A stretch of DNA of 21,063 nt from a virus, in the IMG/VR virus record IMGVR_UViG_3300006802_000731, positions 1 to 21,063 of that record, one strand, 5' to 3'. The first letter of the stretch is position 1; every line of letters starts with the position of its first letter. Positions 1,916 through 20,069 of this stretch are shown here, in pieces. A program made the translations under genes and the position numbers. A model generated the notes under the pieces. That model was given only the letters and a program-made list of their open reading frames with translations. It did no database searches and was not told where the DNA came from.

Positions 1916-2455
1916 ATGCCATTATTATCAGAAGGATTTACACTACAAGCTTCAATTCCAATTGACACTAGATTTTTTGTCGCGGAATCGGGATCGCTCT
2001 ACGGTATCCTAACTACATATAATGGTTTAACTGTATATGCTACTGGGTCAAATGAGTATTATTTATTAGTAGATAAAGATAATAGTAACACTAATATAGG
2101 GTGGAGGCAATTACCCACTCATTATGTTACTTCAAGTATAGCAGCTATTAGTACTACAACTACTCTATACGATATTAAAACAGGAAGTCAATCCAATGCT
2201 GAAGATGTAAATTATCATAGTGCCCATTCGGATTACCAGATTTATGATGGGAATGGTACTAGAGCAGGCTCTTTAATAGCTAGTTTTAATGAAGACTCTT
2301 TAGATTATACAGATTTTAGTAATGCTGGAACAGGGGACCAAGCAAATCATATAGAATTACAAGTTGTTCTTATAACAGATGGTATTAAAATCCAAGTAGT
2401 TAATTCTAACGCATCTAAAACCCCAAAAGTTAAAATTTCTACTCGACTTTTATAA
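1916..2455 (+). CDS. Small structural protein next to the fibre gene (unrecognised family)
   Basis: This 179-residue protein has no signal peptide or membrane segment. Its N-terminal half reads IDTRFFVAESGSLYGI, then GLTVYATGSNEYYLLVD and GWRQL. This pattern of a short beta-rich module with a property/value layout is one I associate with small virion or fibre-linked proteins of marine myophages. The rest is Ser/Thr/Asn-rich and also beta-like. It starts 6 bases after the fibre stop codon and ends right at the ATATTTAT element before the neck genes, so it is probably co-transcribed with the fibre gene. A role as fibre chaperone, fibre tip or head/neck decoration is possible. The sequence alone does not decide between them. 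Confidence 0.75.
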   Translation: MPLLSEGFTLQASIPIDTRFFVAESGSLYGILTTYNGLTVYATGSNEYYLLVDKDNSNTNIGWRQLPTHYVTSSIAAISTTTTLYDIKTGSQSNAEDVNYHSAHSDYQIYDGNGTRAGSLIASFNEDSLDYTDFSNAGTGDQANHIELQVVLITDGIKIQVVNSNASKTPKVKISTRLL

Positions 2456-2462
2456 TATTTAT
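2455..2462 (+). promoter_or_regulatory. ATATTTAT element 1, before the neck operon
   Basis: An ATATTTAT octamer overlaps the last base of the upstream stop codon and lies 11 bases before the ATG of the neck gene at 2474. It is one of seven copies, one in each intergenic gap of 18 bases or more. It may be a promoter core or an mRNA processing site; function is inferred from position only. Confidence 0.5.
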
Positions 2463-2473
2463 AAACAAACAAC

Positions 2474-3628
2474 ATGCCCAACACTCCAATATGGCCCGGA
2501 TCTAGTTCATTTTTCCCAGGGGATACTCCTTTTGGGTTTTATGATAACGACATAGATTTTCAATGTGATGCCGATAAAGTATCTGTATTTTGTGCTCGTC
2601 GTTTAGGATATCCTTTAGCTGATGTAGAATTACAAGATATTAATTTTTATACTGCATTTGAAGAAGCAGTAACTACATATGGTAATGAAGTATTTGCTTA
2701 TAAAGCAAGTGAAAACTATCTTTCACTAGAGGGGTCATCCACAGGTTCAACTTTAAATTATAAACTACAAAAACCTAATTTAGGTACTACTATTCGTTTA
2801 TCTGAACAATATGGTGAAGAAGCAGGTGTTGGGGGTAGCGTTACATGGAGAGAAGGAAATATAATACTAACTTCAAGTGTTCAAACTTATGATTTAAATG
2901 CTTGGGCTTCTTCTTCCGGTATAGAATATGGTGAACTAGAAGTTAAAGAAGTATTTTATCAAGGTGATCCTGCAATTGTAAGGTATTTTGATCCTTATGC
3001 TGGTACTGGTACTGATGTGCAAGGTTTATTAGATGCTTTTGGATTTGGTAATTACACTCCTGGTATTAATTTCTTACTAATGCCTATTAATTATGATTTA
3101 TCTAAAATCCAAGCTATTGATTTTAACGATACTATTAGAAAATCAAATTACAGTTTTGAATTAATAAACAATCAACTAAGAATATTCCCTATTCCTAATC
3201 GAAACGGAGAAAAATTATATTTTAAATATATCTTAAAATCTGACAGAAACACAGCGATTGTTTCTGGAAGTTTAGAAAGTGGAGTAGTAACAGATGTTTC
3301 AACTGTACCCTATGCTAACCCAACTTATTCATACATTAATTCAATTGGTAGACAATGGATATTTGAATACACATTAGCATTGTGTAAAGAAATGTTAGGT
3401 TATATTAGAGGTAAATACACTACAGTACCAATTCCTGGAAGTGAAGTAACACTTAACCAAGCTGATTTAATTTCAGCAGCAACTTCTGAAAAAACAGCAT
3501 TAGTTGAAAGGTTAAGAACCTATCTTGAAGAAAATTCTCGTAATAAGTTATTAGAAAAAAAGGCAGCAAATGCTGAATTTTTACAAAAAGATTTAAGTGC
3601 AGTACCATATACTATCTTTATTGGCTAA
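2474..3628 (+). CDS. Neck / head-completion protein, T4 gp13-like
   Basis: This 384-residue soluble protein is somewhat longer than T4 gp13 (309 residues). The N-terminus has an IWPGSSSFFPGDTPFGFYD stretch and then a helical region (ADKVSVFCARRLGYPLADVEL, FYTAFEEAVTTYGNEVF). The C-terminal ~100 residues contain IGRQWIFEYTLALCKEMLG, IRGKYTTVPIPGSEVTLN and a long helix. From memory these match neck proteins of T4-like marine phages. In T4, gp13 and gp14 complete the head and form the neck that the tail docks to. The start is the first ATG after the ATATTTAT element, preceded by AACAAC and no Shine-Dalgarno. It overlaps the next gene by one base (TAATG), and the gp14-like and gp15-like neighbours repeat the T4 order, which supports the call. 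Precise orthology to gp13 is moderate. Confidence 0.65.
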   Translation: MPNTPIWPGSSSFFPGDTPFGFYDNDIDFQCDADKVSVFCARRLGYPLADVELQDINFYTAFEEAVTTYGNEVFAYKASENYLSLEGSSTGSTLNYKLQKPNLGTTIRLSEQYGEEAGVGGSVTWREGNIILTSSVQTYDLNAWASSSGIEYGELEVKEVFYQGDPAIVRYFDPYAGTGTDVQGLLDAFGFGNYTPGINFLLMPINYDLSKIQAIDFNDTIRKSNYSFELINNQLRIFPIPNRNGEKLYFKYILKSDRNTAIVSGSLESGVVTDVSTVPYANPTYSYINSIGRQWIFEYTLALCKEMLGYIRGKYTTVPIPGSEVTLNQADLISAATSEKTALVERLRTYLEENSRNKLLEKKAANAEFLQKDLSAVPYTIFIG

Positions 3629-4137
3629 TGGCATTATTTGGAAGAACTCGTGACGTAAATTTAATAAAAACAATTAACAGAGAATTGTTAGGGGATGTTA
3701 TTACTCAGCAATGTTCTTTTTATAAAATAAGATTAGAAGAAACTACTTTTAATTTATACGGTGAAGCAGCAGGAGGTAAATTTTATGATGGACCTATTAT
3801 ATTTAACTGTTTAGTAGAAAGAAGTGATCAAGAATATCCTGAAAGCGATTTAGGAGTTGATTTTAGCTGGAGTATAATATTTAAATTTCTTAGGGAAGAT
3901 ATTTTAAATGCAGGGATGCAACCCGAAGTAGGAGATCTTATATTATATAATGGTGGATATTACCAAGTAGATGATATTATATCAAATCAATACTTTGTAG
4001 GTAAAGACCCTAACTATCCTAATGAACCCAACCCTCTTAACCCAGGCTTAAGTGATTTTGGAGGTAATTTATCTTACATAGTTAAAACACATTATGAACC
4101 TGCTGATAAATTCGGCATTACTAAAGAAAGATTTTAA
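3628..4137 (+). CDS. Neck protein, T4 gp14-like
   Basis: This 169-residue protein is shorter than T4 gp14 (256 residues). Visible landmarks are TTFNLYGEAAGGKFYDGP near residues 39-56, a central GVDFSWSIIFKFLREDIL segment, and PEVGDLILYNGGYYQVDDI followed by NQYFVGKDPNYP. This combination of a beta-barrel-like connector with an EVGD...YY.VD motif is what I recall from gp14-type neck proteins in cyanophages and related myophages. It would assemble on the head vertex with the gp13-like product and contact the tail terminator. Start and stop codons overlap both neighbours in TAATG form, indicating translational coupling within a neck operon. The family assignment is from remembered motifs and synteny. 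Confidence 0.65.
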   Translation: MALFGRTRDVNLIKTINRELLGDVITQQCSFYKIRLEETTFNLYGEAAGGKFYDGPIIFNCLVERSDQEYPESDLGVDFSWSIIFKFLREDILNAGMQPEVGDLILYNGGYYQVDDIISNQYFVGKDPNYPNEPNPLNPGLSDFGGNLSYIVKTHYEPADKFGITKERF

Positions 4138-5081
4138 TGGCAGAACAAGGTAAAACTCCAATTCCAAAGTCCCAAAGGGAAATATCTACAGGATTACATG
4201 AACCTTATTACGAAGAAACAGGTAATCCTAATAATGTTACTAAATATGCTACTACATTAGCAGATGCTAGAGCTAACAATCAAGTAGTAGATCCTGCTCG
4301 AGCTTCTAGAATTTCTCAAAAAGATGATACTTGGAAACCATTTACTATTGGTATTAAGGATTTAGATGAAGCTATTAAATTTTATTTTGATAATGTTATT
4401 CGTCCTAGTGTAGTCCAAAATGGAAATAGAATAGCAGTACCTACTATATATGGTTCTCCTGAAAGATGGAAATCTGTTCAAAAAGATGGATACTACAGAG
4501 ATAAAAAAGGTAAAATTATGGCACCGCTTATTATGTATAAGCGAACTAATATAGATAGAAATAGGGGAATTACTAATAAAGTTGATGCTAATTTTCCTCA
4601 AAATTATGCAGTTTTCCAACAATCATATTCAAAACAAAATCATTATAATAATTTAAGTGTATTAAATGGGGCTAAACCTATTAAAACCTATCAAGCTATT
4701 GTAATCCCTGATTTTGTTACTTTTACCTACAGTTGTGTGATTTATACCTATTATATGGAACAATTAAATCAAATAATTGAAGCTATAAATTATGCTGCTG
4801 ATACTTATTGGGGTAATCCTGAACGTTTTAAATTTAGAGCTATGATCAATGGATACCAAACTATTACAGAATTAAATGTAGGACAACAAAGAACAGTTAA
4901 AGGTAATTTTGATATTAAATTAAATGGTTATATCATACCTAACGTTATACAAAAAGATCTTAATGCTCTTAAAAAGTTTTCAAGTGATTCTAAGATTATT
5001 ATAGGACAAGAAACAGTTGAAAATTTAACTCAAGATAGAAATAATAATTTTATTGAAGAAATAAACACAAATTTAGACTAA
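4137..5081 (+). CDS. Tail terminator / sheath stabiliser, T4 gp15-like
   Basis: This 314-residue protein compares with 272 for T4 gp15. The N-terminal ~65 residues are polar. The conserved core then runs from FTIGIKDLDEAIKFYFDNVI through VPTIYGSPERWKSVQKDGYY and IMAPLIMYKRT to FVTFTYSCVIYTYYMEQLNQ, GNPERFKFRAMI and the final FDIKLNGYIIP. These are strong matches to the gp15-type proximal sheath-stabilisation family as I remember it. In T4, gp15 caps the finished tube and sheath and provides the face that binds the neck. The position after the two neck genes and before sheath and tube fits that job. It overlaps the gp14-like gene by one base (TAATG). The last ~30 residues are acidic and polar and probably disordered. 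Confidence 0.7.
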   Translation: MAEQGKTPIPKSQREISTGLHEPYYEETGNPNNVTKYATTLADARANNQVVDPARASRISQKDDTWKPFTIGIKDLDEAIKFYFDNVIRPSVVQNGNRIAVPTIYGSPERWKSVQKDGYYRDKKGKIMAPLIMYKRTNIDRNRGITNKVDANFPQNYAVFQQSYSKQNHYNNLSVLNGAKPIKTYQAIVIPDFVTFTYSCVIYTYYMEQLNQIIEAINYAADTYWGNPERFKFRAMINGYQTITELNVGQQRTVKGNFDIKLNGYIIPNVIQKDLNALKKFSSDSKIIIGQETVENLTQDRNNNFIEEINTNLD

Positions 5082-5082
5082 A

Positions 5083-5328
5083 ATGGCCGAACAAAAACTA
5101 ACCTCTGAAGAAATTCAAGAAATTAAAACTATTCAAGAAACACAAGAAAAATTACTAAATAGTTTTGGTGAAATTGAGTTTCAAATTCAAAATTTAGAAT
5201 TACAAAAAGAAAAATTAGTAGAAGAACTAGAATCATATAAAAATAGTGAACAAACCTTAGCTAATAAATTATCCCAAAAATATGGAAATGGTACTATTGA
5301 TCTTGAACAAGGTCTTTTTAAATCATAA
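5083..5328 (+). CDS. Small coiled-coil protein of the tail module
   Basis: This 81-residue protein is almost entirely one charged helix. Heptad-like spacing of Leu/Ile runs from about residue 10 to 62 (EIKTIQETQEKLL, IEFQIQNLELQKEKLVEEL), and it ends with KYGNGTIDLEQGLF. The fold suggests a dimeric or prefoldin-like coiled coil. The gene follows the gp15-like stop after one base, so it belongs to the neck operon. In T4 the terminase genes 16 and 17 sit here between 15 and 18; this protein is too short and has no terminase motif. A role as an assembly chaperone or minor neck component is a guess from position. Confidence 0.7.
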   Translation: MAEQKLTSEEIQEIKTIQETQEKLLNSFGEIEFQIQNLELQKEKLVEELESYKNSEQTLANKLSQKYGNGTIDLEQGLFKS

Positions 5329-5352
5329 AAAATATTTTTGAAAACTTTTTAT

Positions 5353-5360
5353 ATATTTAT
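5353..5360 (+). promoter_or_regulatory. ATATTTAT element 2, before the sheath gene
   Basis: This octamer lies 49 bases upstream of the sheath ATG. The leader that follows contains TTTAATAAATTT and TAACTTAAA (5388-5396), both shared with the tube leader, which suggests a common strong late control region. Confidence 0.5.
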
Positions 5361-5393
5361 CAATAAGACAATTGTTTAATAAATTTTTAACTT

Positions 5394-5405
5394 AAATTCG
5401 AATTT
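5394..5405. promoter_or_regulatory. Perfect 12-bp palindrome before the sheath start
   Basis: AAATTCGAATTT is a perfect inverted repeat with no spacer, ending 4 bases before the sheath ATG. It could be an operator-like protein site. In such AT-rich DNA it may also be chance, and it is not repeated before other genes. Confidence 0.2.
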
Positions 5406-5409
5406 CAAC

Positions 5410-7149
5410 ATGGCAGAACAAATAATTTCCCCAGGGGTATTTCAAAATGAAAATGTCCCTGTAACATTAGAAGCAGCTCCCGCTCCTATAGGAGCTGCTA
5501 TCGTAGGTCCCACAGTTAAGGGTCCTATGGGTATACCTACTTTAGTAACTACTTATAGTGATTTTAAAACTAGATTTGGTAGTACTATTACAAGTGGAGG
5601 AGCAGAATACTCTTTCTTCACAAGCATCTCAGCCCAAAACTACTTTAAACAAGGAGGAGCTAATTTAACAGTTATTAGAGTTGCTAGTGGTTCCCACTTA
5701 TATACTCCAGCTACTTCTTCAGCTATTATTTCTGGTAGTGATGGTGGAACCGGCACTAATGATGTGTTCAAACTCCAAACTATCTCAGAAGGAGCTAATC
5801 AAAACAATACTGGAAGTGAACAAGCTGGAGGTGCCCTCCCATCGGGATCTGCAGATAATATTAGATTTGAAATCACTAATGTAGACACAGGGTCTGGTAT
5901 TTTTACACTTAATATTAGACGAGGTAATGACAGACAAGCAGATAAAACTATCCTTGAGTCTTGGAGAGGAGTTTCACTTGATCCTAAACGAGATGATTAC
6001 ATTGCTAAAGTAATTGGTAACCAAGTATTCTCAGTAGGATTAGATGGTACTGATGCTTATGTCTCAGTAACTGGTGAATATCCAAACAAATCTAAGTACG
6101 TAATTGTAAAAGAAGTACTTAAAACTACTCCTGATTACTTAGATGGTGCTGGTAATGTACGACTTGCTGAATACACATCATCTCTCCCAGCAGCACAAAG
6201 TGGATCGTTTGGAGATGGTGTAGGTGATCCTCTTGGAATAGGTGCAGTAAATTGGTATAGTAACATTACTAATGCAAATTCACAAGGTGTATTAGCTGAA
6301 AATTATACATCTTCACTTAACTTGTTAAGAAACAAAGATCAGTATGCATTTAATGTTATTAGTGTTCCTGGTTTAGTTTATGCATTTGCAGATCATGCTA
6401 CCCAATTAGATACACTTATTACTAATACAACTACTAGGGGTGATAGTATTTTACCAATTGATTTAGTAGGATACGGTTCTACAAGTGCTGCTGCTATAAC
6501 ACAAGCAAGTAACTTAAATACTAACTATGCAGCTGCATACTGGCCTTGGTTATTAGTTAATGACGAAGATACAAAAGCTAACGTTTGGGTCCCAGCTTCT
6601 ACAATAATCCCTTCAGTGTATGTCTATAATGATAATACTTCTGAAGCTTGGTTTGCACCTGCTGGTTTTACTAGAGGTACTATGCCAAATGTAGTAGCTC
6701 CTGAAAAAACATTACCTAGAACCTTAAGAGACAACCTCTACAATGCTAAAATTAACCCAATTGCTACCTTCCCAGGTACGGGTGTTGTAGTTTATGGCCA
6801 GAAAACATTACAATCTCTTTCAACTGCACTCGATAGAGTTAATGTTAGAAGATTAATGATTGCTCTTAAAGCATTTATTGGTAATGTTTCTCAAAACCTC
6901 GTCTTTGAACCTAACACATTACAAACTAGAAATAGCTTTTTAAGTACTGTTAACCCATATTTAGAAAGCGTTCAACAAAACCAAGGTTTGTATGCGTTTA
7001 AGGTAGTAATGGATGACTCAAATAACGGTCCTGATGTAATCGATAGACAAGAGTTAAGAGGTGCTATTTACCTACAACCAGTTAAAACCGCAGAATTTAT
7101 TGTACTTGACTTCAACCTCCTCCCAACAGGAGCTGAATTCCCAGCATAA
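5410..7149 (+). CDS. Contractile tail sheath protein, T4 gp18 family
   Basis: This 579-residue protein is somewhat shorter than T4 gp18 (659 residues). It opens with the hallmark ISPGVFQNE, followed by APIGAAIVGPTVKGP and TYSDFKTRFG, the usual N-terminal sheath domain. Residues ~100-300 form a Ser/Gly/Asn-rich variable insert. The C-terminal domain has the conserved RTLRDNLYNAKINPIATFPG, VVYGQKTLQ, DRVNVRRLMIALKAFI, FEPNT and a final YLQPVKTAEFIVLDFNLLPTG, which forms the inner ring and the inter-subunit handshake arms. Sheath subunits stack around the tube and contract to drive it through the envelope. The gene has its own ATATTTAT element and leader and is followed by a rho-independent terminator, consistent with independent, high expression. 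Start: ATG preceded by ATTTCAAC with no Shine-Dalgarno. Confidence 0.95.
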   Translation: MAEQIISPGVFQNENVPVTLEAAPAPIGAAIVGPTVKGPMGIPTLVTTYSDFKTRFGSTITSGGAEYSFFTSISAQNYFKQGGANLTVIRVASGSHLYTPATSSAIISGSDGGTGTNDVFKLQTISEGANQNNTGSEQAGGALPSGSADNIRFEITNVDTGSGIFTLNIRRGNDRQADKTILESWRGVSLDPKRDDYIAKVIGNQVFSVGLDGTDAYVSVTGEYPNKSKYVIVKEVLKTTPDYLDGAGNVRLAEYTSSLPAAQSGSFGDGVGDPLGIGAVNWYSNITNANSQGVLAENYTSSLNLLRNKDQYAFNVISVPGLVYAFADHATQLDTLITNTTTRGDSILPIDLVGYGSTSAAAITQASNLNTNYAAAYWPWLLVNDEDTKANVWVPASTIIPSVYVYNDNTSEAWFAPAGFTRGTMPNVVAPEKTLPRTLRDNLYNAKINPIATFPGTGVVVYGQKTLQSLSTALDRVNVRRLMIALKAFIGNVSQNLVFEPNTLQTRNSFLSTVNPYLESVQQNQGLYAFKVVMDDSNNGPDVIDRQELRGAIYLQPVKTAEFIVLDFNLLPTGAEFPA

Positions 7150-7174
7150 TAAATTTTTTACAAAAATAAAAGAA

Positions 7175-7206
7175 AGGGGTTGGATTTTATCCAACCTCTT
7201 TTTTTC
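7175..7206 (+). terminator. Rho-independent terminator after the sheath gene
   Basis: The arm AGGGGTTGGA (7175-7184) pairs with TCCAACCTCT (7190-7199) with one G-U wobble and a five-base loop, followed by a run of T to 7205. It lies 26 bases after the sheath stop codon and 5 bases before ATATTTAT element 3. Confidence 0.9.
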
Positions 7207-7210
7207 TTAA

Positions 7211-7218
7211 ATATTTAT
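7211..7218 (+). promoter_or_regulatory. ATATTTAT element 3, before the tube gene
   Basis: This octamer directly follows the sheath terminator and lies 54 bases before the tube ATG. The intervening leader contains TTTTAATAAATTT and TAACTTAAA (7254-7262), also present before the sheath. Its placement right after a terminator supports a promoter role. Confidence 0.5.
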
Positions 7219-7272
7219 TAATAACCCAAATAGGGTTTTAATAAATTTATAATTAACTTAAAAATAACAACA

Positions 7273-7761
7273 ATGGCAATTTTAGATCCAAACGAAATAT
7301 TTTTTACAGCGTTTGAACCCAAACAGCAGAATAGATTCCTTATGTTAGTAGATGGGGTCCCTTCATATTTTATTAAAGGTGTATCCTCTATTACTTTAGA
7401 ACAAGGAGAAGTAATACTTAACCATATTAACGTTTACAGAAAAATAAAAGGTAAAACAACTTGGGGGGATGTAACATTAACTCTTCATGATCCTGTTTCT
7501 CCTTCTGGAGCGCAAACTATTATGGAATGGGTAAGATTACACCACGAATCAGTAACAGGTAGAGATGGTTACTCTGATTTTTATAAAAAAGACGTAACTT
7601 TAAATATTTTAGGTCCTGTAGGTGATATTGTTTCCGAGTGGGTATTAAAAGGATGTTACATTAAGAGTGCAGACTTTGGTGAATATAACTGGGACAACGA
7701 AAACGCCGCCCAAAATATTTCTATGGTATTAACCCCAGACTACTGTGTATTAAATTACTAA
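7273..7761 (+). CDS. Tail tube protein, T4 gp19 family
   Basis: This 162-residue protein is essentially the size of T4 gp19 (163 residues). The typical order of tube features is present: an N-terminal FEPKQQNRFLMLVDGVPSYF strand, the VYRKIKGKTTWGDVTLTLHDP segment, then GAQTIMEWVRLHHESVTGRDGYSD, and a C-terminal VLKGCYIKSADFGEYNWDN followed by ISMVLTPDYCVLNY. This beta-barrel fold forms hexameric rings that stack into the tube carrying the DNA. It sits after the sheath in the usual order. It has its own ATATTTAT element, a leader related to the sheath leader, an AACAACA start context and a strong terminator downstream, so it is probably monocistronic and abundant. Confidence 0.93.
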   Translation: MAILDPNEIFFTAFEPKQQNRFLMLVDGVPSYFIKGVSSITLEQGEVILNHINVYRKIKGKTTWGDVTLTLHDPVSPSGAQTIMEWVRLHHESVTGRDGYSDFYKKDVTLNILGPVGDIVSEWVLKGCYIKSADFGEYNWDNENAAQNISMVLTPDYCVLNY

Positions 7762-7780
7762 TCAATTTAGTAAAGATTAC

Positions 7781-7819
7781 AAAAAGGAGCGCACAAAAGT
7801 GCGCTCTTTTTATTTTTTT
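7781..7819 (+). terminator. Rho-independent terminator after the tube gene
   Basis: GGAGCGCAC (7786-7794) and GTGCGCTCT (7799-7807) form a GC-rich stem with an AAAA loop. It is extended by A-T pairs between the flanking A run and T run and followed by further T-rich sequence. It lies about 20 bases after the tube stop codon. Confidence 0.92.
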
Positions 7820-7821
7820 AG

Positions 7822-7829
7822 ATATTTAT
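7822..7829 (+). promoter_or_regulatory. ATATTTAT element 4, before the gp26-like gene
   Basis: This octamer lies within 15 bases downstream of the tube terminator stem and 25 bases before the ATG at 7855. It is part of the set of seven. Confidence 0.5.
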
Positions 7830-7854
7830 ATTAAACAAATAAAGTTATTAATAA

Positions 7855-8610: not shown

Positions 8611-8617
8611 ATATAGG

Positions 8618-8857
8618 ATGAGCATGTTTGCCATGATCCATGATATAGTGTATCATGGTAAAGGAGGTTTTGATTGGGTGACTGTATATAATATGCCTAT
8701 TTGGTTAAGGCGTTTTACTTACAATAGAATAGCAGATCATATTAAAGAACAAAACGAAGCTCAACAAAGTACTACCCAACAAACATCAAAGGGTACTTCC
8801 CGCCAAATAGATTTTTCCCAACCCCCACCTGATATAAAACCAGGACAAAGGGTATAA
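8618..8857 (+). CDS. Small baseplate/tail assembly protein downstream of gp26-like (gp51 position)
   Basis: From the ATG at 8618 the product has 79 residues. The frame stays open upstream into the end of the gp26-like gene (an ATG at 8525 would give 110 residues and an 86-base overlap). I prefer 8618 because it lies 7 bases after the upstream stop codon; later in-frame ATGs at 8624 and 8633 are also possible. The N-terminal half, MFAMIHDIVYHGKGGFDWVT then YNMPIWLRRFTYNRIADHI, is a compact helical domain of the kind that follows gp26-like genes in T4-like phages, where T4 has the hub assembly factor gp51. The C-terminal ~35 residues are Gln/Thr/Pro-rich and disordered. It may also be expressed as a frameshift fusion with its neighbour, as in the G/GT chaperones. 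Function is inferred from position. Confidence 0.65.
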   Translation: MSMFAMIHDIVYHGKGGFDWVTVYNMPIWLRRFTYNRIADHIKEQNEAQQSTTQQTSKGTSRQIDFSQPPPDIKPGQRV

Positions 8858-8860
8858 AAT

Positions 8861-8886
8861 AGGGCACCGCAAAGGCGGTGCCCTTT
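8861..8886 (+). terminator. GC-rich hairpin before the tape measure gene
   Basis: AGGGCACCGC (8861-8870) pairs perfectly with GCGGTGCCCT (8875-8884) around an AAAG loop. Only three T follow before AATATTTATA, so it is a weak terminator or a partial read-through/processing hairpin. Confidence 0.75.
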
Positions 8887-8887
8887 A

Positions 8888-8895
8888 ATATTTAT
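8888..8895 (+). promoter_or_regulatory. ATATTTAT element 5, before the tape measure gene
   Basis: This octamer starts 4 bases after the hairpin stem and lies 16 bases upstream of the tape measure ATG at 8912. Confidence 0.5.
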
Positions 8896-8911
8896 ACGAA
8901 AACAACACTGC

Positions 8912-11900: not shown

Positions 11901-14698
11901 AAGCCGCAGGTCAATTAGGTAAATTAGGAGGAATAGCAGGTAAATTAGGCACTGTTGGTAAAAGTTTAGGTAAATTAGCAGCTGGAGGAGGAATCGGAGC
12001 TGTTGTAGGATTAGCAGCAGAAGCAACTTTAGGACATTTTAAGAAAAAAGCAGAAGCGGCCGCAGGTGCTTTAGATGAACAAATTGCTATAACTACTGAT
12101 GTGGGGAAGGCAGCAGAATTAGAACAACAACGAAATGCTAAATTAGAAAAGGCCCGTAACTTAGGTATAGCTGCTGAAACTGCTAAATTTGCGGGATATG
12201 GGGCTGCTATTGGAACTATGATAGGAGGTCCATTTGGTGCAGCTATTGGAGGTGGAGTTGGGGCTTTAGTAGGATTTACTAAAGGTGTAATTGATGCCGA
12301 AAAAGCTAGAAAAAGAGATGAATCTGAAGCAGGTAAATTTGCTAGAGAAATGCAATTATCGGCTATGAAACATCAAAAATCATTAGCTGAATTTGATGTT
12401 AGATCTGCTACTATGAGGGCCAATGCTGCTAAAAAAGCAGCTGATATAGAAATTGCTGCTAAAGATAATTTTGCTAAACAATTAGCAGGAGCAAATGCAA
12501 CTTTTGAAGACTTACAAAGTATGGATATAAAACATACTGACGAAGCTTTTAAAAAACTTGCTACAGAAGCCCTTAACGCAGGTAACATCACAGAAAAGGA
12601 ATATTCAGATGCTTTAAAAGGTAGTTTAGATCCCTTAAAACTTTTAGAAACAGCAGCTTCCCGCTCAGGAGAAAGAATAAATGAATTAACTAATGCCGCA
12701 ATTAATGCTGCAGATGCTGTAGGAAATACTCTTAAAAACCAAATGCTTAAAGCAGCAGGGGTTAATGAAGATGTAGTTAATGCTCAATTAAATGCTATCC
12801 AAGCAATTTCAGCTAATGCCGAAATAGGAGCGGCAGATTTATTTAGTAAATTCGAAGGAGATCTTACTGCTGGGATTAATACAAAAGCAGTAGATGCACT
12901 TAGAGGCCAAGATGAGGATGCTTCTGGCTTTATGGCAGAAATAGCAAAACAGTTTAAAGCTAGTGGAGCTTCGGATGAACAAGTTAAATTAGCTATGGAA
13001 GTATACGCTAATCAACTTGAAGCTGCGGGTGAAAACTTTAAAATAGACACAGCAGGGGATGCTGTTAAAGTACAACAGGGAATAGCAGACGCTCTTCAAA
13101 CAGTAGTTAAATCTGATATAGTAAAAGCCGAAGCTGCTGCTTCTAGTGCTAAGGCTTCTGCGCTTACCCAAATTGATGATAGTGGTATTATTGACCAATT
13201 AGCTTCTTTAAGTAAAGAACAATTATACGGAGATGAAGCCCTTCAAAGCTTATTATCAACAATTGGAGTAGATATGGCTACTATAGCCGAAGATGGTATA
13301 ACAGGAGACGAACAAAAAGCAATTCAAGAAAAATTAACAGTAGCTTTAACCGAAGGCCTAATGGGGGTAGAAGGAGGTAATGCTAACCTTCTTAAAGATC
13401 TCCAAACAACCCTCTCAGGAGATGAAGCTGCTAGAGCAGAATTAACTAAAGCTATTGCTGATGGTACTTATTTAAAAGCGGCTGATGAATCTGCAAAAAC
13501 TTCTGCGACTATTGAAATTAATCCTGAATCTGAAAAAGGATTATTTGCTAACTTTAAAGAAAATTTTGTAGAAAATATTGATGCAATTAAAACTTACTTC
13601 AAGGATTCATTTACAGGAGGTTTTGATATCATAAAAAACATATTTAAAGGCAACTTCTCAGAAGCTTTTGAAGGTATTAAGAAAAAGTTTTTTGCTTTAC
13701 CTACTTTGCTAGGAAAAGTAATAAAAGGCAGTGTAAAACTAATGTGGAAAAGCTTCTTAGGTTTTATAAAACTAGCAGTTACAGTAGGCCCTAAAATATA
13801 TGATGCTATTAAAAAGGCAGCTAAAAAAATTAAAGATACACTTATATCAATATTTAAAACAGTTACAGAAAAAGTTAAACAATTTTTCCAAGATCCGGTA
13901 GGTTCAATTAAACGAGGATTTGAAGCCGCAGTAGATTTTATTAAAGAAAAATTCTTTAGTATTAAAGACGCAATTTTTGAAAAATTCCAATCTGTTGGAG
14001 ACTGGATAAAAGAAAAAATATCAGGGGCTTTATCAGATTTAGGAGCTGCTCTTGGTATTGATGATTTAGGAGGAAAACTTAAAACAGGATTTGAAAATAT
14101 AATTGGCACAGCCAAAGAAAAATTTGCTGCTTTTAAAGATACTATATTTGGTATATTCTCAGGAATAGGAGAAACTATTATGGGAGTTATTAAGGGTCCT
14201 ATTAATGCTATGATTGGGTTAATTAACTCAATGATTGCAAATATTAATTCTGCCCTTAATTTTAAGCTGACAAACCCAATTACTGGAACTGTATACGAAA
14301 TGGGAGTAACAATCCCAGAAATCCCCATGCTTGCTAAAGGTGGTATAATAGATGAAGCAACATTAGCAGTATTAGGTGAAAAAGGCCCTGAAGCTGTAAT
14401 TCCTTTAGATAAATTAGGTTCTATGCTAAGTAATGCTGCTTCATCAGCATCCTCCACTATTTCTCCATTAGCTGGAAAAGCCGCAGATAAGTTAGGTTCA
14501 TTATTCAAATCTGATAAAGAAAAAGAAGAAAAAACTCAAACTGATGAAGAACTTAAAGAAGAACTTCGAAGAATGAGAAAAACAATGGAAACTTTTGTTG
14601 AACAAATGAATCAAGTAGTAAATCGCCCAATTGTAGTAGAAATGAATAGTAATAAAGTTGGACAAGCTTTAGGACAAGATTCATATAGAATTCAATAA
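8912..14698 (+). CDS. Tape measure protein (tail length determinant)
   Basis: This 1928-residue protein is by far the largest gene product here and over three times the length of T4 gp29 (590). Residues 1-230 are Gln/Lys/Glu-rich coiled coil. Residues ~307-332 are a hydrophobic Gly-rich segment. Residues ~940-1045 are Gly/Lys/Ala-rich, and ~1094-1130 hold a glycine-zipper membrane-like stretch (GAAIGTMIGGPFGAAIGGG). Residues ~1550-1790 are amphipathic Phe/Ile/Lys helices ending in AMIGLINSMIANINSALN. Residues 1806-1832 carry the classic tape-measure tail motif LAKGGII...LGEKGPEAVIPL, then a final coiled coil and VVEMNSNKVGQAL. Family members fill the tube during assembly, fix its length and help form the channel for DNA entry. 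I see no peptidase or lysozyme motif. It has its own ATATTTAT element and an AACAAC-type upstream context. Confidence 0.93.
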   Translation: MASEEQINNQKEFNDYIQESQEFLAETISQASQLADQIKFQIDQTKNKIGLDKQVLSLSQQNVNTLTKLKVDYQSISNIDKDRVSILNQIQKNNNVIAAQSKNLSAEELKAAKAYVLKENSLKAQQDTLSELISEQEQLEKAIKAAEASRSDTTALYDQLTALDEQQEFYRQSITDLNNIVTLEQQRLSPQAIAVGMLQDQNTLLEEGVKYLNEEADAVNTVAKAQSLWNSSLGAVEGILKKAGAGGAAIALGLERGKLEAEAMAEQLTNYGEDSGNFITNIGREFKVLGAGVKGTFKGMADSLKAIGLGAILFKGIKGAFNMLGGKVVTGFISDLKSKFMSGISYLKDQFFSLDSYIEDAKAGDQLNQQLSQAAADLATNLGVSTKNAKELTKQAGKFAGSLGMMPEELAAATGELNKAFGSTQKFSDDTVKTFGQLTHLYGLTNEEASEFVKLSQLSGQEASDTTLTYKTQIQALKERNNVAISEKEIMAEIAKSSAAMQLTARGQGKSLAEAAFHAKKMGLSLKQAEGIGNSLLDFESSIANEMEAELLIGRDLNLERARSAALQGDLATVAKEVAGQIGSAAEFGKMNVIQQEALAKSVGVSRDELAEMLKTQELLAGTGFDDMNDAQAKFKQLLKETGSEEKALAKMKEMGASDALQDQMRQVSLQEKRAMQERAIAAAQAQLASAVNKLFDAFYKVEKIVKQIKATIVEQMKPFFDQFGGLVSDGGDAFKEKVLPYAISLGKFLNDVGLRLTEIVRDHGPQIGRIFDGILKMFGSIYNVVGGVIKQLLGISDAGSAADGFFGGIESTINTIIEKLKNVDISVITDKVKGFIESVKNIFNFIFEKIGALGSFLGKNKGLTKTAGMGALALNFAPDTTKKIVGSTLKGLGGLIAPNLFGKRGQSKSAPMFVQDVSGGAGGGLMDMVGKMGGRQAGIGGGFKKGWKGLFDYAKMALKPGKAGQVGRARIARAAKGLVTGQGASFVGGTGKGAAQAAGQLGKLGGIAGKLGTVGKSLGKLAAGGGIGAVVGLAAEATLGHFKKKAEAAAGALDEQIAITTDVGKAAELEQQRNAKLEKARNLGIAAETAKFAGYGAAIGTMIGGPFGAAIGGGVGALVGFTKGVIDAEKARKRDESEAGKFAREMQLSAMKHQKSLAEFDVRSATMRANAAKKAADIEIAAKDNFAKQLAGANATFEDLQSMDIKHTDEAFKKLATEALNAGNITEKEYSDALKGSLDPLKLLETAASRSGERINELTNAAINAADAVGNTLKNQMLKAAGVNEDVVNAQLNAIQAISANAEIGAADLFSKFEGDLTAGINTKAVDALRGQDEDASGFMAEIAKQFKASGASDEQVKLAMEVYANQLEAAGENFKIDTAGDAVKVQQGIADALQTVVKSDIVKAEAAASSAKASALTQIDDSGIIDQLASLSKEQLYGDEALQSLLSTIGVDMATIAEDGITGDEQKAIQEKLTVALTEGLMGVEGGNANLLKDLQTTLSGDEAARAELTKAIADGTYLKAADESAKTSATIEINPESEKGLFANFKENFVENIDAIKTYFKDSFTGGFDIIKNIFKGNFSEAFEGIKKKFFALPTLLGKVIKGSVKLMWKSFLGFIKLAVTVGPKIYDAIKKAAKKIKDTLISIFKTVTEKVKQFFQDPVGSIKRGFEAAVDFIKEKFFSIKDAIFEKFQSVGDWIKEKISGALSDLGAALGIDDLGGKLKTGFENIIGTAKEKFAAFKDTIFGIFSGIGETIMGVIKGPINAMIGLINSMIANINSALNFKLTNPITGTVYEMGVTIPEIPMLAKGGIIDEATLAVLGEKGPEAVIPLDKLGSMLSNAASSASSTISPLAGKAADKLGSLFKSDKEKEEKTQTDEELKEELRRMRKTMETFVEQMNQVVNRPIVVEMNSNKVGQALGQDSYRIQ

Positions 14699-14702
14699 CC
14701 CC

Positions 14703-14710
14703 ATATTTAT
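14703..14710 (+). promoter_or_regulatory. ATATTTAT element 6, before the baseplate operon
   Basis: This octamer lies 47 bases before the ATG at 14758. The leader holds TAACTTAAA (14739-14747) and ends in AATAACAAC, as in the tube leader. No hairpin separates it from the tape measure gene. Confidence 0.5.
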
Positions 14711-14757
14711 AACCACATTTAGTGTATTAATTAGATAATAACTTAAACAATAACAAC

Positions 14758-14931
14758 ATGTCATTATTAAAATCTTTACAAACATCTATTTTAGGATTTA
14801 AAGGACAAACACCCCCGGTAACTAACCCTAATCCTTTAGGACCATTAGGAAAAAAATCTCTTGATAATTCTCTTTTAGACAGAAATAACGGAGCTACTCC
14901 TCCTAAGTACTTAGATAACCCACCAGCATAA
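14758..14931 (+). CDS. 57-residue proline-rich small protein, first gene of the baseplate operon
   Basis: The frame runs from ATG at 14758 to TAA at 14929-14931. The product starts MSLLKSLQTSILGFKGQTPP, continues with PNPLGPLGKKSLDNSLLD and ends ATPPKYLDNPPA. It is probably unstructured apart from a short N-terminal amphipathic helix. No known domain is recognised. The gene is supported by its exact fit between the tape measure and the next gene (7 bases away), the full leader with ATATTTAT, TAACTTAAA and AACAAC before ATG, and codon use like its neighbours. A tether or plug between tube initiator and tape measure, or an assembly factor, would fit the position, but that is speculation. Confidence 0.7.
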   Translation: MSLLKSLQTSILGFKGQTPPVTNPNPLGPLGKKSLDNSLLDRNNGATPPKYLDNPPA

Positions 14932-14938
14932 TTAACAT

Positions 14939-16486
14939 ATGGGCCTTATTGACTTAAAAACTAACTTAAGGTCCCTTAGCTATGGATCAGGAATAGGGGA
15001 ACCTTATATTAGGCGTCCCCTTCCTGCTTATAATGAGGACCCTGGTAATCCCTATTTAGGAGCTGATATATTTAGTCGCCAAGGTTCTTTAATTAGTGCT
15101 AATAATGATGTCACCAGGCTAACTAGATACATAACAAGTGGAAAAGGTCTACTTTTTAATGCAAAACAATTAGCATTAGAAACTAGTAGACCTAAAACCC
15201 CCTATGGTCCTAAAAGAGGTTATTTAGTTTCAAATGCTGTAGCTCAAGCGGGTGTGCAGGGTAATGGAATTCATTTAAATAGAAATTTATTTTTTGACAG
15301 TAAAAATGATGGGTATGATTATCAAACCCGTACTTTTTACAATGAAGAAAATAATAACAGATTAACTTTACTTTATAATACTAAAATTTCTAAAAGTGGA
15401 GGAGGAGCTACTTCTAGATCTAAATTTGGAATAACAGATAAAGGAGACCAAATTACACTTATGCGCTACAGTGGGGGATCAGGTGGGTTTAGTACAACTT
15501 TAAAACGAATTTCTAACACTACAGAATATACCCCCGGAGTAGGAAAATACCAAAATGTTTTTACATTAACTAATACCCAACTTCAAGGTCAAATCCCAGA
15601 TCCTTCGATAGGAGTGCGTAGAAATACTGGATTTAACCATATTGGAAATTTTATAATTGATGTCAACGATTCTACCAATGCACCTAGTAAAACTAGAATT
15701 TTAGGTCGTTTAACACAATATAGTACATTTAATAGACCTAATATATTTAAAACAGGAGATCCGGGTAATGATGCTAACTTAAATAGACAAACTTATTATG
15801 AAGGAGTTCCTCAACAAACCCAAGGAACTGACTTAATTAATTATAAAAAAATATATTCTAGTGCAGACGGAGTTAAAACCCAAACAAATAGTGCTGAAGA
15901 TTTAATTAAGTTTTATATAGCTGTATTAGATAATAATAACCCCCAAAATAAAACTTACATACATTTTAGAGCTTATATTGAAGGTTTTCAAGACAACTAT
16001 GCTGCAAATTGGAACTCAGTAAAATACCCTGGAAGAGGTGAAGAATTTTTTAAATATGATGGTTTTACTAGAGATATCAGTTTTAGTTTTAAAGTCCATG
16101 TAGCTTCTAGAGTAGAATTATTCCCTACCTATAATAAACTAAACTATCTTGCTTCTATAATGACCCCTGATTACTCTAACCCAGGATTTATGAGAGGAAA
16201 CATAGTTCAATTAACAGTAGGAGATTATATTAATGATACTTATGGTGTTATCACAGGATTTAGTTATAATTTATCAGATGAAACTTCTTGGGATATAGCT
16301 AGAAAAGATGATGGAAAAGAAGATGAAAATTCTGCTGAATTAGCAACTTTAATTAGTGTAGATAGTTTTAGTTTTAAACCTATACACAATTTCTTACCTC
16401 GTACTGTTAAAGAACTTGATAATCCTGAATCTAGATTTATTTCTTTAGGAAATAAAGGTTATGGTGCTGATAAAAGAGGAATATAA
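14939..16486 (+). CDS. Baseplate tube-initiator/cap candidate (T4 gp48/gp54-like position)
   Basis: This 515-residue protein has an N-terminus MGLIDLKTNLRSLSYG followed by a polar, Asn/Gly-rich central part. The C-terminal ~180 residues (from about 340) hold the best-conserved-looking block: YIHFRAYIEGFQDNYAANWN, then YPGRGEEFFKYDGFTRDISF, VGDYINDTYGVITGFSYNL and TSWDIAR. A beta-rich domain of this kind resembles the tube-like fold of baseplate proteins that start tube polymerisation. In T4 the genes next to tape measure gene 29 are 48 and 54, which encode the tube cap and initiator, so synteny supports this reading. The gene ends in a TAATG overlap with the LysM gene. An alternative is another inner baseplate protein. 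The coding call is firm and the function moderate. Confidence 0.6.
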   Translation: MGLIDLKTNLRSLSYGSGIGEPYIRRPLPAYNEDPGNPYLGADIFSRQGSLISANNDVTRLTRYITSGKGLLFNAKQLALETSRPKTPYGPKRGYLVSNAVAQAGVQGNGIHLNRNLFFDSKNDGYDYQTRTFYNEENNNRLTLLYNTKISKSGGGATSRSKFGITDKGDQITLMRYSGGSGGFSTTLKRISNTTEYTPGVGKYQNVFTLTNTQLQGQIPDPSIGVRRNTGFNHIGNFIIDVNDSTNAPSKTRILGRLTQYSTFNRPNIFKTGDPGNDANLNRQTYYEGVPQQTQGTDLINYKKIYSSADGVKTQTNSAEDLIKFYIAVLDNNNPQNKTYIHFRAYIEGFQDNYAANWNSVKYPGRGEEFFKYDGFTRDISFSFKVHVASRVELFPTYNKLNYLASIMTPDYSNPGFMRGNIVQLTVGDYINDTYGVITGFSYNLSDETSWDIARKDDGKEDENSAELATLISVDSFSFKPIHNFLPRTVKELDNPESRFISLGNKGYGADKRGI

Positions 16487-16800
16487 TGAATAGATACAGA
16501 AAAATATCAATTTTTAATAATTCTCCTGTAAAGGAAAAAAAAAGATTTTACTCAACAGTAAGATATCCTGAAATTCCTTTATCTGTAAGTGATATATATG
16601 TTATCACCCAAAAATCTGACAGGTATGATTTATTAGCTAATCAATACTATGGAGATAAATCTTTATGGTGGATAATTTCAATTGCTAATCCCTCAATTAC
16701 TCAAAATACTTTATATCCTCCTATAGGGGTACAACTTAGAATTCCAACTAACATAACAAATATATTAACTAGTTATAATAAATTAAATAATAATGTCTAA
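16486..16800 (+). CDS. LysM-like baseplate protein, T4 gp53-like
   Basis: This 104-residue protein has a LysM-type fold at about residues 36-88. DIYVITQKSDRYDLLANQYY begins the domain, GDKSLWWIISIANP gives the Trp-Trp and Asn-Pro core, and GVQLRIP closes it. T4 gp53 is a baseplate wedge protein with a LysM-like domain, and short LysM proteins (Mu/P2 gpX-like) sit beside hub genes in many contractile tails. In these settings the domain serves baseplate assembly rather than cell-wall binding, though peptidoglycan contact remains possible. It overlaps the previous gene by one base (TAATG) and the next by 8 bases, so the three are tightly coupled. The call rests on the motif plus context. Confidence 0.75.
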   Translation: MNRYRKISIFNNSPVKEKKRFYSTVRYPEIPLSVSDIYVITQKSDRYDLLANQYYGDKSLWWIISIANPSITQNTLYPPIGVQLRIPTNITNILTSYNKLNNNV

Positions 16801-19456
16801 TTTAACTGGGTCACCTTTAGATTTTTATGTACAACAACAAATTGATACAAGACAAAAAATTTTAGGAAATAATCCTGAAATTCAAAATCTTGATATAAGA
16901 GTACTTAATAATCATAATAAAAATGCTTGGGTTAGATTAGCATCTTCTGTAGATGTTACTTCATTTAATGCTATTGAAGGTATTGAATATAATATTCCTC
17001 GTGGTTCTGATTTAGCATCACAATTTGTTCTAGTGGGAGGAGTAACAGAAACATTTGCTAATTATATAGGAAATAATGGAGTATCTAGAGAAGATGCTGG
17101 ACCCTCTTTTTCAAGAGGTGGAGTTATTCCTGGACAAACTTCTTCTCCTCTAATAGCTAGTAGTTATTCTTATGGTTTAGGTAATCTTAATTATGGTTTA
17201 TCCCCTATCCCTGGTTTAGGATCAGTTTCTATTAAACATGTTAATAGAGGAGCTATACGTGATTTTAATATTAAATTGCAAGCTCAAAATAAAGACCAAT
17301 TAACATTAATTGAATCTTTATACCTTAGATTAGGATACTATATGTTATTAGAATGGGGTCATACTAATTATGTTACAAGTGAAGGAGTTTATGTATCTCA
17401 ACCTGAATTTAACACAGATGCTTTTATTAAATTTTTTACTAAAGGATCAAAAGATACAGATGTAGAAGATTCAATAGATGAACTTAGAAGAGAAACTGAG
17501 GGAAACTATGATGGAGCTCTATTTAAAGTTAAAAACTATTCCTGGAATATCAATATGGATGGTAGTTACGACATAACCCTTTCAGGAATATCAAAAGGAG
17601 GATTAATAGATAGTTTAACTATAGGAGCCCCAGGAGAAACAGGAAAAGATGAAAATAAAGCTTCATTTACAGATTATTTAATACTAGATCCTTCTAAAGA
17701 TGAAAAAAAAGCTATTCTCAAAAAATTAGGAAAATCCTCAGTTAAAGATAATGCTGTAGATAAAGTTTATAAAGAAACTATAGGTACAAGATTATCAAAA
17801 GGTGAGTTTAAAATTCTTCAAGAAAAAGGAGCTATTAAAATTAAGGATCCTAATGCTAATACAAACCCCAAAGTTTTAGATATTTCAAGTACTTTAGACT
17901 CTACAGATGATGACGTTGCTATTACTATAGCTAATCAAAATAAATCTATTCTTAATAAAGAACTATTTGATATTACTAGAGCTTTAAAAAAAGAAAAATG
18001 GGTTAAAAAAGGTAAAGGAAAATATAAAAAATACCAACTTCGTGATGAATTATTAAAGAGTGAAGGAATTCAAGATTTAGGAGAAATTATTGCTATAAAA
18101 TTTAATAATGCTAGTAAATCTGATAATGCTGCTGAATATAACTACATAACATTAGGGGCTTTATTATCTATAATAAAAGAAAAAGTATTAAAATCTAATA
18201 ACAATATTACACTTCCTATAAGTGATGGTTATCAAGACAATTATATGTTTTCCCATTGGTTTCAACATTCTACTAACCCTAAAGTTTGTGTAATTCCCTT
18301 TGACATTGAAAATAATCTTAATATTGGGGGATTAGATGTAGATACTTCTAATTTTAATGAAATATTATCTACTACTTTTAGACAAATAGAAGGGGACGAA
18401 GCTCCTTATAATCCTTATAAAGGATATTTAATGGCTATCCATATAAATATTGAATATATATCTAAAACTTTACAAGATTCTTATCAAGATAAAGGAGGAA
18501 TTAATCTTTATACTTTTTTAGAAAAATTAATGTTTGGTATCCAAGATGCTTTAGGTAATATAAATAACTTTACAATAACTTATGATGAAAAAAATGGTAT
18601 TAATATAAAAGATGATACTATAATCCCTGGAATTATCCCCAATAAAGATGATACTGTGAAATTACGCTTATATGGCACCCGCCCAGGAATTGATGGAAGT
18701 TTTTTGCGTAATGTAAGTGCTCAATCTAAAATAACTAGTAAAATGGCTACTCAAATAGCTATAGGTTCAACGGCAAGCGGTAATTCTATTAATGAAAGTA
18801 CTTCTTTACTATCTAGGTGGAATGAAGGGTTAGTAGATAGATTACAAGCAGCAGAACCATCAACACAAGACACAACAGAAGCTGAACCTAATCAACTTTT
18901 AGAAGAAATTAATAAAAAATATGAATCTCAACTTACTTTTTTAAAAGATTCCTATGAAAATTTTAAATATCTAGGAGATCCTAGTTATACATCAGCCCAA
19001 ACTAATTTAAAAAGTTTATTAGAATATGATTTGGCTGTAAAAACTATAAATGGAAACATATCCGGTAAAGGTTTTATTCCTATAGATCTTACTTTAGAAA
19101 TGGAAGGACTTTCTGGAATACTTTTATACCAAAAAATCCAAACAACTGAAGAAATTTTACCTGCTTCTTATAATAATAAAGTAGATTTTATAGTACAAGC
19201 TTTAGATCATACTATAGATAGAAATGAGTGGACTACTACTATAAGCACTCTTTCTACCCCTAAAAAAACAGATTTAACTAAAAATATTATTAATAAGGAT
19301 GATAATGAATTTAGTTTATTAAATCCCCTTAATCCTGACACTAACCAACCAGAACCTAAACCTAAAAAATCAACTCCTAAAATAGAAAAACCAGCAGAAT
19401 ATGCTTGGATGACTGATGAAGCATATGCTAATTTTGTAGGAACTTCTAATAGTTAA
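16793..19456 (+). CDS. Large baseplate protein, central hub candidate
   Basis: This 887-residue protein starts 8 bases inside the LysM gene. The N-terminal region has AWVRLASSVDVTS and a Gly/Ser-rich loop. Residues ~150-270 hold IKLQAQNKDQLTLIESLYLR, LGYYMLLEWGHTNYV and a strand block (FKVKNYSWNINMDGSYDITL). The middle (about 300-450) is Lys-rich and helical. Residues ~765-820 contain LTLEMEGLSGILLYQKI, LPASYNNKVDFIVQALDHTI and NEWTTTISTL. That last pattern, a beta domain with an x-x-H-x-I...W-T-T ending, is what hub proteins (gp27/gpD type) often show. It is followed by a Pro/Lys-rich linker. I infer the hub or a large inner baseplate component. No spike, lysozyme or metal motif is visible. 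I do not recognise a named family over the full length. Confidence 0.55.
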   Translation: MSNLTGSPLDFYVQQQIDTRQKILGNNPEIQNLDIRVLNNHNKNAWVRLASSVDVTSFNAIEGIEYNIPRGSDLASQFVLVGGVTETFANYIGNNGVSREDAGPSFSRGGVIPGQTSSPLIASSYSYGLGNLNYGLSPIPGLGSVSIKHVNRGAIRDFNIKLQAQNKDQLTLIESLYLRLGYYMLLEWGHTNYVTSEGVYVSQPEFNTDAFIKFFTKGSKDTDVEDSIDELRRETEGNYDGALFKVKNYSWNINMDGSYDITLSGISKGGLIDSLTIGAPGETGKDENKASFTDYLILDPSKDEKKAILKKLGKSSVKDNAVDKVYKETIGTRLSKGEFKILQEKGAIKIKDPNANTNPKVLDISSTLDSTDDDVAITIANQNKSILNKELFDITRALKKEKWVKKGKGKYKKYQLRDELLKSEGIQDLGEIIAIKFNNASKSDNAAEYNYITLGALLSIIKEKVLKSNNNITLPISDGYQDNYMFSHWFQHSTNPKVCVIPFDIENNLNIGGLDVDTSNFNEILSTTFRQIEGDEAPYNPYKGYLMAIHINIEYISKTLQDSYQDKGGINLYTFLEKLMFGIQDALGNINNFTITYDEKNGINIKDDTIIPGIIPNKDDTVKLRLYGTRPGIDGSFLRNVSAQSKITSKMATQIAIGSTASGNSINESTSLLSRWNEGLVDRLQAAEPSTQDTTEAEPNQLLEEINKKYESQLTFLKDSYENFKYLGDPSYTSAQTNLKSLLEYDLAVKTINGNISGKGFIPIDLTLEMEGLSGILLYQKIQTTEEILPASYNNKVDFIVQALDHTIDRNEWTTTISTLSTPKKTDLTKNIINKDDNEFSLLNPLNPDTNQPEPKPKKSTPKIEKPAEYAWMTDEAYANFVGTSNS

Positions 19457-19459
19457 AAA

Positions 19460-20053
19460 ATGTCTTATTACCCTAAAAGTCAAATAAAAACAGATTTATA
19501 CACTAAAGGAAAAGAATTTAGAGTTATTTCCCTTCAAAAGGAATATACAGGATATTACTGGAAAACTTCTAAAGGAGAATATTTTTCTGGAAGAAATCCT
19601 AAAGATGGAACTCCCCTAGAACTAGAAGTAATCCCTACAATCCCAGCTTCAAAAAATAATGTTGTAACTTATACTTTGGGACAAGATAATAATTTGTATA
19701 ATTTTTTTAAAGGGATAGATGTATCAAAAACTTTTTTACTTCCTACATATGTTAAACCTTCTCCTAGTAAAGATGATTATCAAATAGGAAATTTTATTCG
19801 TTATTTTGCTAAAAAATATACACAGAATATATATATTGAAACTTCTAAAGAAATATATGATAATTTAGATAATCAAAATGAAGAGTATGATTATCCTTCA
19901 TATTTAATTTTTACTTTAGTTTGGGTTTTAACTGGTTCTTCATTATCTGTAGAAAAAGCTAATCGTAATATTATTAAATCTACCGAGCAAAGACTAAATA
20001 TTAATGGGTTAGATACTTATTTAAAATTTAATTACTTAGAATTTTATAAATAA
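19460..20053 (+). CDS. Conserved-looking tail protein of unknown function (197 residues)
   Basis: This is a soluble protein with an N-terminus MSYYPKSQIKTDLYTKG and then GYYWKTSKGEYFSGRNPKDG. The middle has DYQIGNFIRYFAKKYTQNIY, and the C-terminal part has YLIFTLVWVLTGSSLSVEKANR, which is hydrophobic but interrupted by polar residues and is more likely a buried helix than a membrane segment. The aromatic N-terminal block reads like proteins I have seen beside baseplate and fibre genes of marine myophages, but I cannot name a function. It starts 3 bases after the hub candidate and precedes the fibre gene, so a baseplate-periphery or fibre-attachment role is plausible. Confidence 0.7.
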   Translation: MSYYPKSQIKTDLYTKGKEFRVISLQKEYTGYYWKTSKGEYFSGRNPKDGTPLELEVIPTIPASKNNVVTYTLGQDNNLYNFFKGIDVSKTFLLPTYVKPSPSKDDYQIGNFIRYFAKKYTQNIYIETSKEIYDNLDNQNEEYDYPSYLIFTLVWVLTGSSLSVEKANRNIIKSTEQRLNINGLDTYLKFNYLEFYK

Positions 20054-20061
20054 ATCTTTTA

Positions 20062-20069
20062 ATATTTAT
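20062..20069 (+). promoter_or_regulatory. ATATTTAT element 7, before the second fibre gene
   Basis: This octamer lies 23 bases upstream of the fibre ATG at 20093. A T4-late-promoter-like TATAAATA (20045-20052) occurs just upstream, overlapping the previous stop codon; it may be chance. Confidence 0.5.

Follow-up and report, generated by a model that had tools for sequence, protein, structure and literature searches.

The window analysed here is the complete virus record IMGVR_UViG_3300006802_000731 (21,063 bases), which covers the tail-gene region of a T4-like phage with a contractile tail. Its genes, every one of them on the + strand, encode a head-tail adaptor-like protein, the tail sheath, the tail tube, a baseplate hub-like protein, a tape measure of 1928 aa, a baseplate wedge protein and two collagen-repeat fibre proteins. 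Among isolates, Flavobacterium phage vB_FspM_immuto, in the following simply called immuto, is the closest, with 48% identity in the sheath. Leaders in the window are A-rich and carry no Shine-Dalgarno sequence, which PMC6847099 reports for Flavobacterium as well. Both ends of the contig (2-800 and 20604-21063) consist of collagen-like GTSGTDGTDGT repeats within the two fibre genes, and the assembly therefore probably broke there.

From the letters of this window, it had been claimed that the octamer ATATTTAT stands once, on the + strand, in every intergenic gap of at least 18 nt. This was exact for all seven coordinates (7/7 gaps, Table 1). The total gap length of 467 bases was likewise reproduced, counting as genes the 57-aa ORF at 14758-14931 and a small ORF ending at 8857. 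A small correction concerns the 2455 copy, which overlaps the preceding stop codon, the first base of the octamer being the last base of the stop. An intragenic copy at 1326 (+) was borne out, and a second one, at 18443 (-), was absent from the original prediction. The three hairpins said to lie ahead of octamers are real and end about 4-15 nt before them.

Table 1. Putative late-promoter boxes and terminator-like hairpins in the window, with predicted transcription starts.
Feature	Coordinates	Strand	Predicted start
ATATTTAT putative late-promoter box, head-tail adaptor-like gene (ATG 2474)	2455..2462	+	~2467
ATATTTAT putative late-promoter box, tail sheath gene (ATG 5410)	5353..5360	+	~5365
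Terminator-like hairpin with T run, -17.8 kcal/mol, ahead of 7211 box	7172..7202	+	
ATATTTAT putative late-promoter box, tail tube gene (ATG 7273)	7211..7218	+	~7223
Terminator-like hairpin with T run, -15.6 kcal/mol, ahead of 7822 box	7786..7807	+	
ATATTTAT putative late-promoter box, baseplate hub-like gene (ATG 7855)	7822..7829	+	~7834
Terminator-like hairpin, -21.3 kcal/mol, ends 4 nt before 8888 box	8861..8884	+	
ATATTTAT putative late-promoter box, tape measure gene (ATG 8912)	8888..8895	+	~8900
ATATTTAT putative late-promoter box, 57-aa ORF (ATG 14758) and following genes	14703..14710	+	~14715
ATATTTAT putative late-promoter box, collagen-repeat fibre gene (ATG 20093)	20062..20069	+	~20074

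It is the placement of ATATTTAT, and not its number, that is extraordinary. On both strands together, the window holds 9 copies versus 5.3 expected from whole-window shuffles, an unremarkable total because the window is so AT-rich. For the gaps, 5000 dinucleotide-preserving shuffles of the gap sequences were generated. The expected number of copies in the gaps, guessed at 0.3 in the original prediction, was lowered by these shuffles to a mean of 0.167. In shuffled gaps, ATATTTAT was present in 3/7 gaps at most, and when any octamer whatsoever was allowed, the maximum was 5/7, with 0/5000 shuffles going beyond it.

To look beyond the window, 80 IMG/VR loci were collected by their sheath protein. 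In a count that favoured no motif in advance, ATATTTAT came out as the most frequent gap octamer. Removal of near-duplicates left 69 loci, which with mechanical gene calls comprise 402 same-strand gaps (24 kb) and 793 kb of genes. In these, ATATTTAT was found in forward orientation in 272/402 gaps versus 5 in reverse, and inside genes it was rare and without strand bias (50 forward, 43 reverse in the 793 kb). ATATTTAT is therefore a directional, gap-specific element. The exact octamer is missing from about one third of the relatives' gaps, and one-base variants also show a forward-strand excess, namely those with C as first base (23/0), G as first base (10/0) and G as fifth base (19/1). Terminator-like hairpins within 60 nt, counted by a simple ad hoc rule, were located upstream of the box at 52 sites and downstream at 1.

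The box is also conserved gene by gene, ahead of orthologues with median identities of 54-70%. It is kept exactly in 13/18 orthologues of the adaptor gene (5 more with one mismatch) and in 46/63 of the sheath gene (11 more with one mismatch), is kept in 61/67 for the tube and 40/54 for the hub, and is present in 3/3 for the 57-aa ORF. In the same comparison, there is almost no box where a gene abuts its neighbour. In the late part of Microcystis phage Mel-JY01 (PP395634.1), the same element is again the top gap octamer (7/15 gaps, 0 reverse). The enrichment in gaps versus genes that had been proposed as a check is positive in relatives and long genomes. As a side observation, Mel-JY01 was recorded from a cyanobacterium and has its sheath, a sigma-like protein of the gp118 type described below (36% identical) and its late motif in common with phages of Flavobacterium, and it may be worth checking which host it really infects.

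In the case of the isolate immuto, two classes of gap sites could be distinguished. The first is of host type, TTG-N20-TATATTTAGG, with the TTG at fixed spacing in 13/13 gap sites, and 12/13 of these lie inside a block at 60-78 kb whose genes are mostly small and have no known function. This class closely follows the Bacteroidota primary-sigma consensus, TTTG near -33 and TAnnTTTG near -7 (PMC7366714). The second, putatively late class reads [AC]TATTTAT and has 34 gap sites, 1 of them in the 60-78 kb block; the separation of the two classes along the genome gives a Fisher p = 3e-9. Late-class boxes precede terminase, portal, sheath, tube, hub, tape measure and others, and the octamer is confined mainly to the structural-gene side of this complete isolate genome. 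Ahead of the major capsid gene (at 26868-26895), no late box could be recognised over 110 nt, although most of the late genes around it have one. Because of its gene content and host-type promoters, we infer that the 60-78 kb block is early in time. The comparison of orientation for minus-strand genes comprised 17 gaps, which is too few.

Two further observations concern immuto itself. Between 60954 and 76214 and at 22092 (NC_055915.1), sites of the form TTG-N20-TATATTTAGGTATCAATAATTAAAAC, a putative second promoter class that resembles the Bacteroidota host consensus, mark a block of small genes without known function, and this class is the top gap motif of close immuto relatives. Moreover, immuto is annotated (18607-36093) with the queuosine-pathway genes QueC, QueD, QueE, FolE and QueF-like, plus DpdA, which together suggest 7-deazaguanine in the phage DNA.

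A gp55-like sigma factor had been named as something to look for in the full genome. In immuto, the sole match to the T4 late-sigma family was gp118, a protein annotated as hypothetical (phrog_234, E 0.008 in a within-genome search, E 0.5 and 0.026 in library scans). A homologue is encoded by the 113-kb relative G002 (44% identical), and many more are present in IMG/VR. Pfam Sigma70_r2 was matched by 25/41 aligned members of the gp118 family and the next family by 3, and the NCBIfam matches of immuto gp118 were sigma factors in 4/4 cases; all these sigma-model scores are below the curated cut-offs, and T4 gp55 is equally weak against Sigma70_r2. The structural model of gp118 is of moderate confidence (pLDDT 78.6, pTM 0.47) and has sigma factors among its weak fold matches, and a PDB sequence search with the gp118 profile gave weak unrelated matches only. 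When the gp118 family was compared by profile (hhalign) to T4 gp55 and its relatives, the match was not significant, and homology to gp55 is therefore not claimed. The proposed check is positive in that a sigma-like protein does occur in the fuller genomes. Searches with phrog_12791 and for a single-subunit phage RNA polymerase (PF00940) gave no match, and neither did their respective controls.

The position of the gp118 gene adds to its sequence. In immuto it lies at the end of the host-type-promoter block, and in 130/131 distinct loci from three clades a late box stands no more than 16 nt behind the stop codon of the sigma gene; two outlying gp118 homologues differ from this arrangement. In the G002-type sigma clade, the first base of the box is A (73 forward, 1 reverse). 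In the clade whose sigma is 57-65% identical to immuto gp118 it is C, with CTATTTAT at 54/2 and ATATTTAT at 19/21. The first base of the box thus tracks the sigma clade, which fits recognition by a gp118-type sigma but may also reflect common descent. At first, ATATTTAT seemed hardly enriched near close gp118 homologues (112 versus 73); their flanks are early-type DNA or belong to the clade that uses CTATTTAT. The 21-kb window contig has no sigma gene, none was found for the clade to which the window belongs, and the link to a sigma rests on relatives with a 48-55% identical sheath. The gene was not found in the 155-kb relative G001 either, but the contig of G001 starts at the gp114 homologue, just past the site of the gene in immuto, and so does not speak for a real absence. 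Separately, the gaps of the phages whose sigma shares 57-65% identity with gp118 contain another motif, AATAAAGGTT, beside CTATTTAT.

These data bear on the possibility that the box is a promoter read by the host's own sigma, either the primary Bacteroidota factor or an ECF sigma, perhaps with a phage activator. TATTTA is common to the box and to the host-type -7 element TATATTTAGG of immuto, which gives the box a -7/-10 region like that of primary-sigma promoters in Bacteroidota, the probable host phylum. There is also the precedent of Ma-LMM01, whose late promoters have kept both host-type elements and which has no phage sigma (PMC5780444); like the phages described here, it is contractile-tailed, distantly related to T4 and without evident gp55. 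However, no upstream -33 partner is visible for the ATATTTAT class, with TTG at the host-type spacing in 0-4% of its sites, whereas in immuto the host-type sites have it throughout. ATATTTAT also differs from the Bacteroidota promoter in having no fixed T one base before it (the preceding base is mostly not T) and no G after TTT. The separation of the two classes along the immuto genome and the presence of a sigma-like protein behind the early block argue in the same direction, and unlike Ma-LMM01, a distinct late class and a sigma candidate are found here. Reading by a host sigma is consequently regarded as unlikely.

To locate the start of transcription, a sequence logo was built solely from sites separated from the start codon by 20 nt or more. 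After the octamer it reads A A [T/C] A [A/G] A, and the box with its surroundings is approximately [ACG]TAT[TG]TAT AA[TC]A[AG]A. Counting the first base of the octamer as 0, position 12 of this logo is a purine in 95% of cases (A 0.62 and G 0.33, with T 0.04 and C 0.00), and A reaches 0.89 at position 13; in the window, A stands at position 12 in 7/7 sites. A separate signal comes from the distances between octamer and ATG, which range from 3 to >50 nt, are never 0-2, peak at 4-5, are nearly absent at 7-10 and resume at 11. In the 4-5 nt class, the ATG begins at position 12 or 13. Two signals, the purine position and the start-codon cluster, thus agree on a predicted start 5-6 nt past the octamer, which would put the box at -12..-5 or -13..-6. 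The 4-5 nt class is made up mainly of one conserved small gene directly before the sheath (median 4), plus others. This small gene has its own ATATTTAT about 4 nt upstream in 35/50 relatives, as in a leaderless mRNA, and its counterpart in the window (5083-5328) abuts the previous gene and has no box.

The same geometry speaks against an RNA-level element in the mRNA 5' leader or in the region after a terminator, acting in processing, stability or translation. Such an element would equally be strand-specific and always stand before genes. Yet with start codons 4-5 nt after the box in many orthologues, there is no room for a leader element, the box-ATG distance is variable, and the purine-only position 12 and the upstream terminators fit initiation. 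We therefore consider a role at the RNA level very improbable.

In comparison with known phage systems, the nearest pattern is the T4 late box TATAAATA, an 8-bp element at -13 to -6 with no -35 partner and an A/T-rich downstream region (PMC2988020); a late promoter variant, NATAAATA, is described for cyanophage S-PM2 (PMC2984593). The original prediction stated that the octamer is the reverse-complement sense of TATAAATA and does not match the Bacteroidota -7 consensus, and as statements about strings both are right. It did not contain a second relation: shifted by one base and read forward, TATTTATA differs from TATAAATA at two central positions, TT in place of the AA of T4. TATTTATA is present at most sites, with 273 forward-strand copies in the relatives' gaps versus 15 of TATAAATA. 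The apparent reversal is more plausibly explained by a T4-late-like box that points forward and has a different centre.

Several properties agree with a T4 late promoter, namely a single 8-base A/T box about one helical turn before the predicted start and without a -35 element, A/T-rich sequence downstream, a position ahead of late structural genes of a T4-like virion in immuto and relatives, and a sigma-region-2-like phage protein. Others differ. Apart from the centre, which departs from the T4 consensus, the first base of the box shifts by clade (A or C), the predicted start is about 0-1 base nearer, and the candidate sigma is not demonstrably a homologue of gp55. In T4, the gp45 sliding clamp activates late transcription via the clamp-binding ends of gp55 and gp33 (PMC2988020). 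By alignment inspection, the gp118 family ends in a helix and a G-rich tail, without the LDFL-type clamp-binding end of gp55. No gp45-type clamp (PF02916) was found in immuto, G001, G002, G015 and G016 by a search that a very diverged clamp could escape and that recovered the T4 control at E 3e-35. The annotation of immuto lists family A DNA polymerases. Judged from these comparisons, the octamer would work like a T4 late promoter, though not necessarily under a gp55 system.

A backward-pointing T4-type late promoter TATAAATA, which would give antisense transcripts, was rejected as hardly credible. It is true that the T4 core, when reverse-complemented, reads exactly TATTTATA, but the late gaps of T4 have TATAAATA 4 times forward and 0 times reverse, so that the orientation of the octamer relative to genes is opposite. 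In addition, the conserved extension lies downstream on the coding strand, and a backward promoter would transcribe into the terminators of the preceding genes. Chance or AT-richness is a negligible explanation, as the whole-window count does lie inside the shuffled range but the placement statistics in the window and in the relatives contradict it.

Overall, ATATTTAT is probably the -10-like core of late promoters in a large group of T4-like contractile-tailed phages, read by a sigma of the gp118 type. The original proposal of a phage promoter family is thereby supported by gap enrichment, location on the structural-gene side and the sigma-like protein, and is refined in that a late class stands beside a separate host-type class for the small-gene block. 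Placement, strand bias, conservation, geometry, the two classes and the sequence and position of the sigma-like protein are computed results; we infer from the sequences that the box starts transcription, acts late and is read by the gp118-type protein. The mechanism would be as follows. Host RNA polymerase with a phage-made sigma would recognise the box without a -33 element and begin transcription on a purine 5-6 bases past it. Each structural gene or small operon would have its own start, often just behind the previous terminator. The sigma, most likely of the immuto gp118 family, would be produced from host-type promoters where the early block ends, and the first late promoter would lie directly behind the stop codon of its gene.

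The cultured close relative infects Flavobacterium. More tentatively, and somewhat short of an even chance in our estimation, a large aquatic group of Bacteroidota T4-like phages may combine a non-gp55 sigma family, the absence of a gp45-type clamp, single-box promoters whose first base shifts by sigma clade (A or C) and some leaderless mRNAs that begin at the ATG, in a late-transcription switch distinct from that of T4, which is coupled to the clamp. In the open-access literature searched, no prior description of this promoter was found. If true, these findings would give a common, almost uncultured phage group both a late-promoter consensus and a candidate sigma, and early and late genes would be separable from metagenome contigs alone. 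Sigma-promoter pairs in which the first base has shifted would be available as a natural series, and it could be tested whether clamp-coupled late transcription holds throughout the T4-like phages or is a property of those that have a gp45 replisome.
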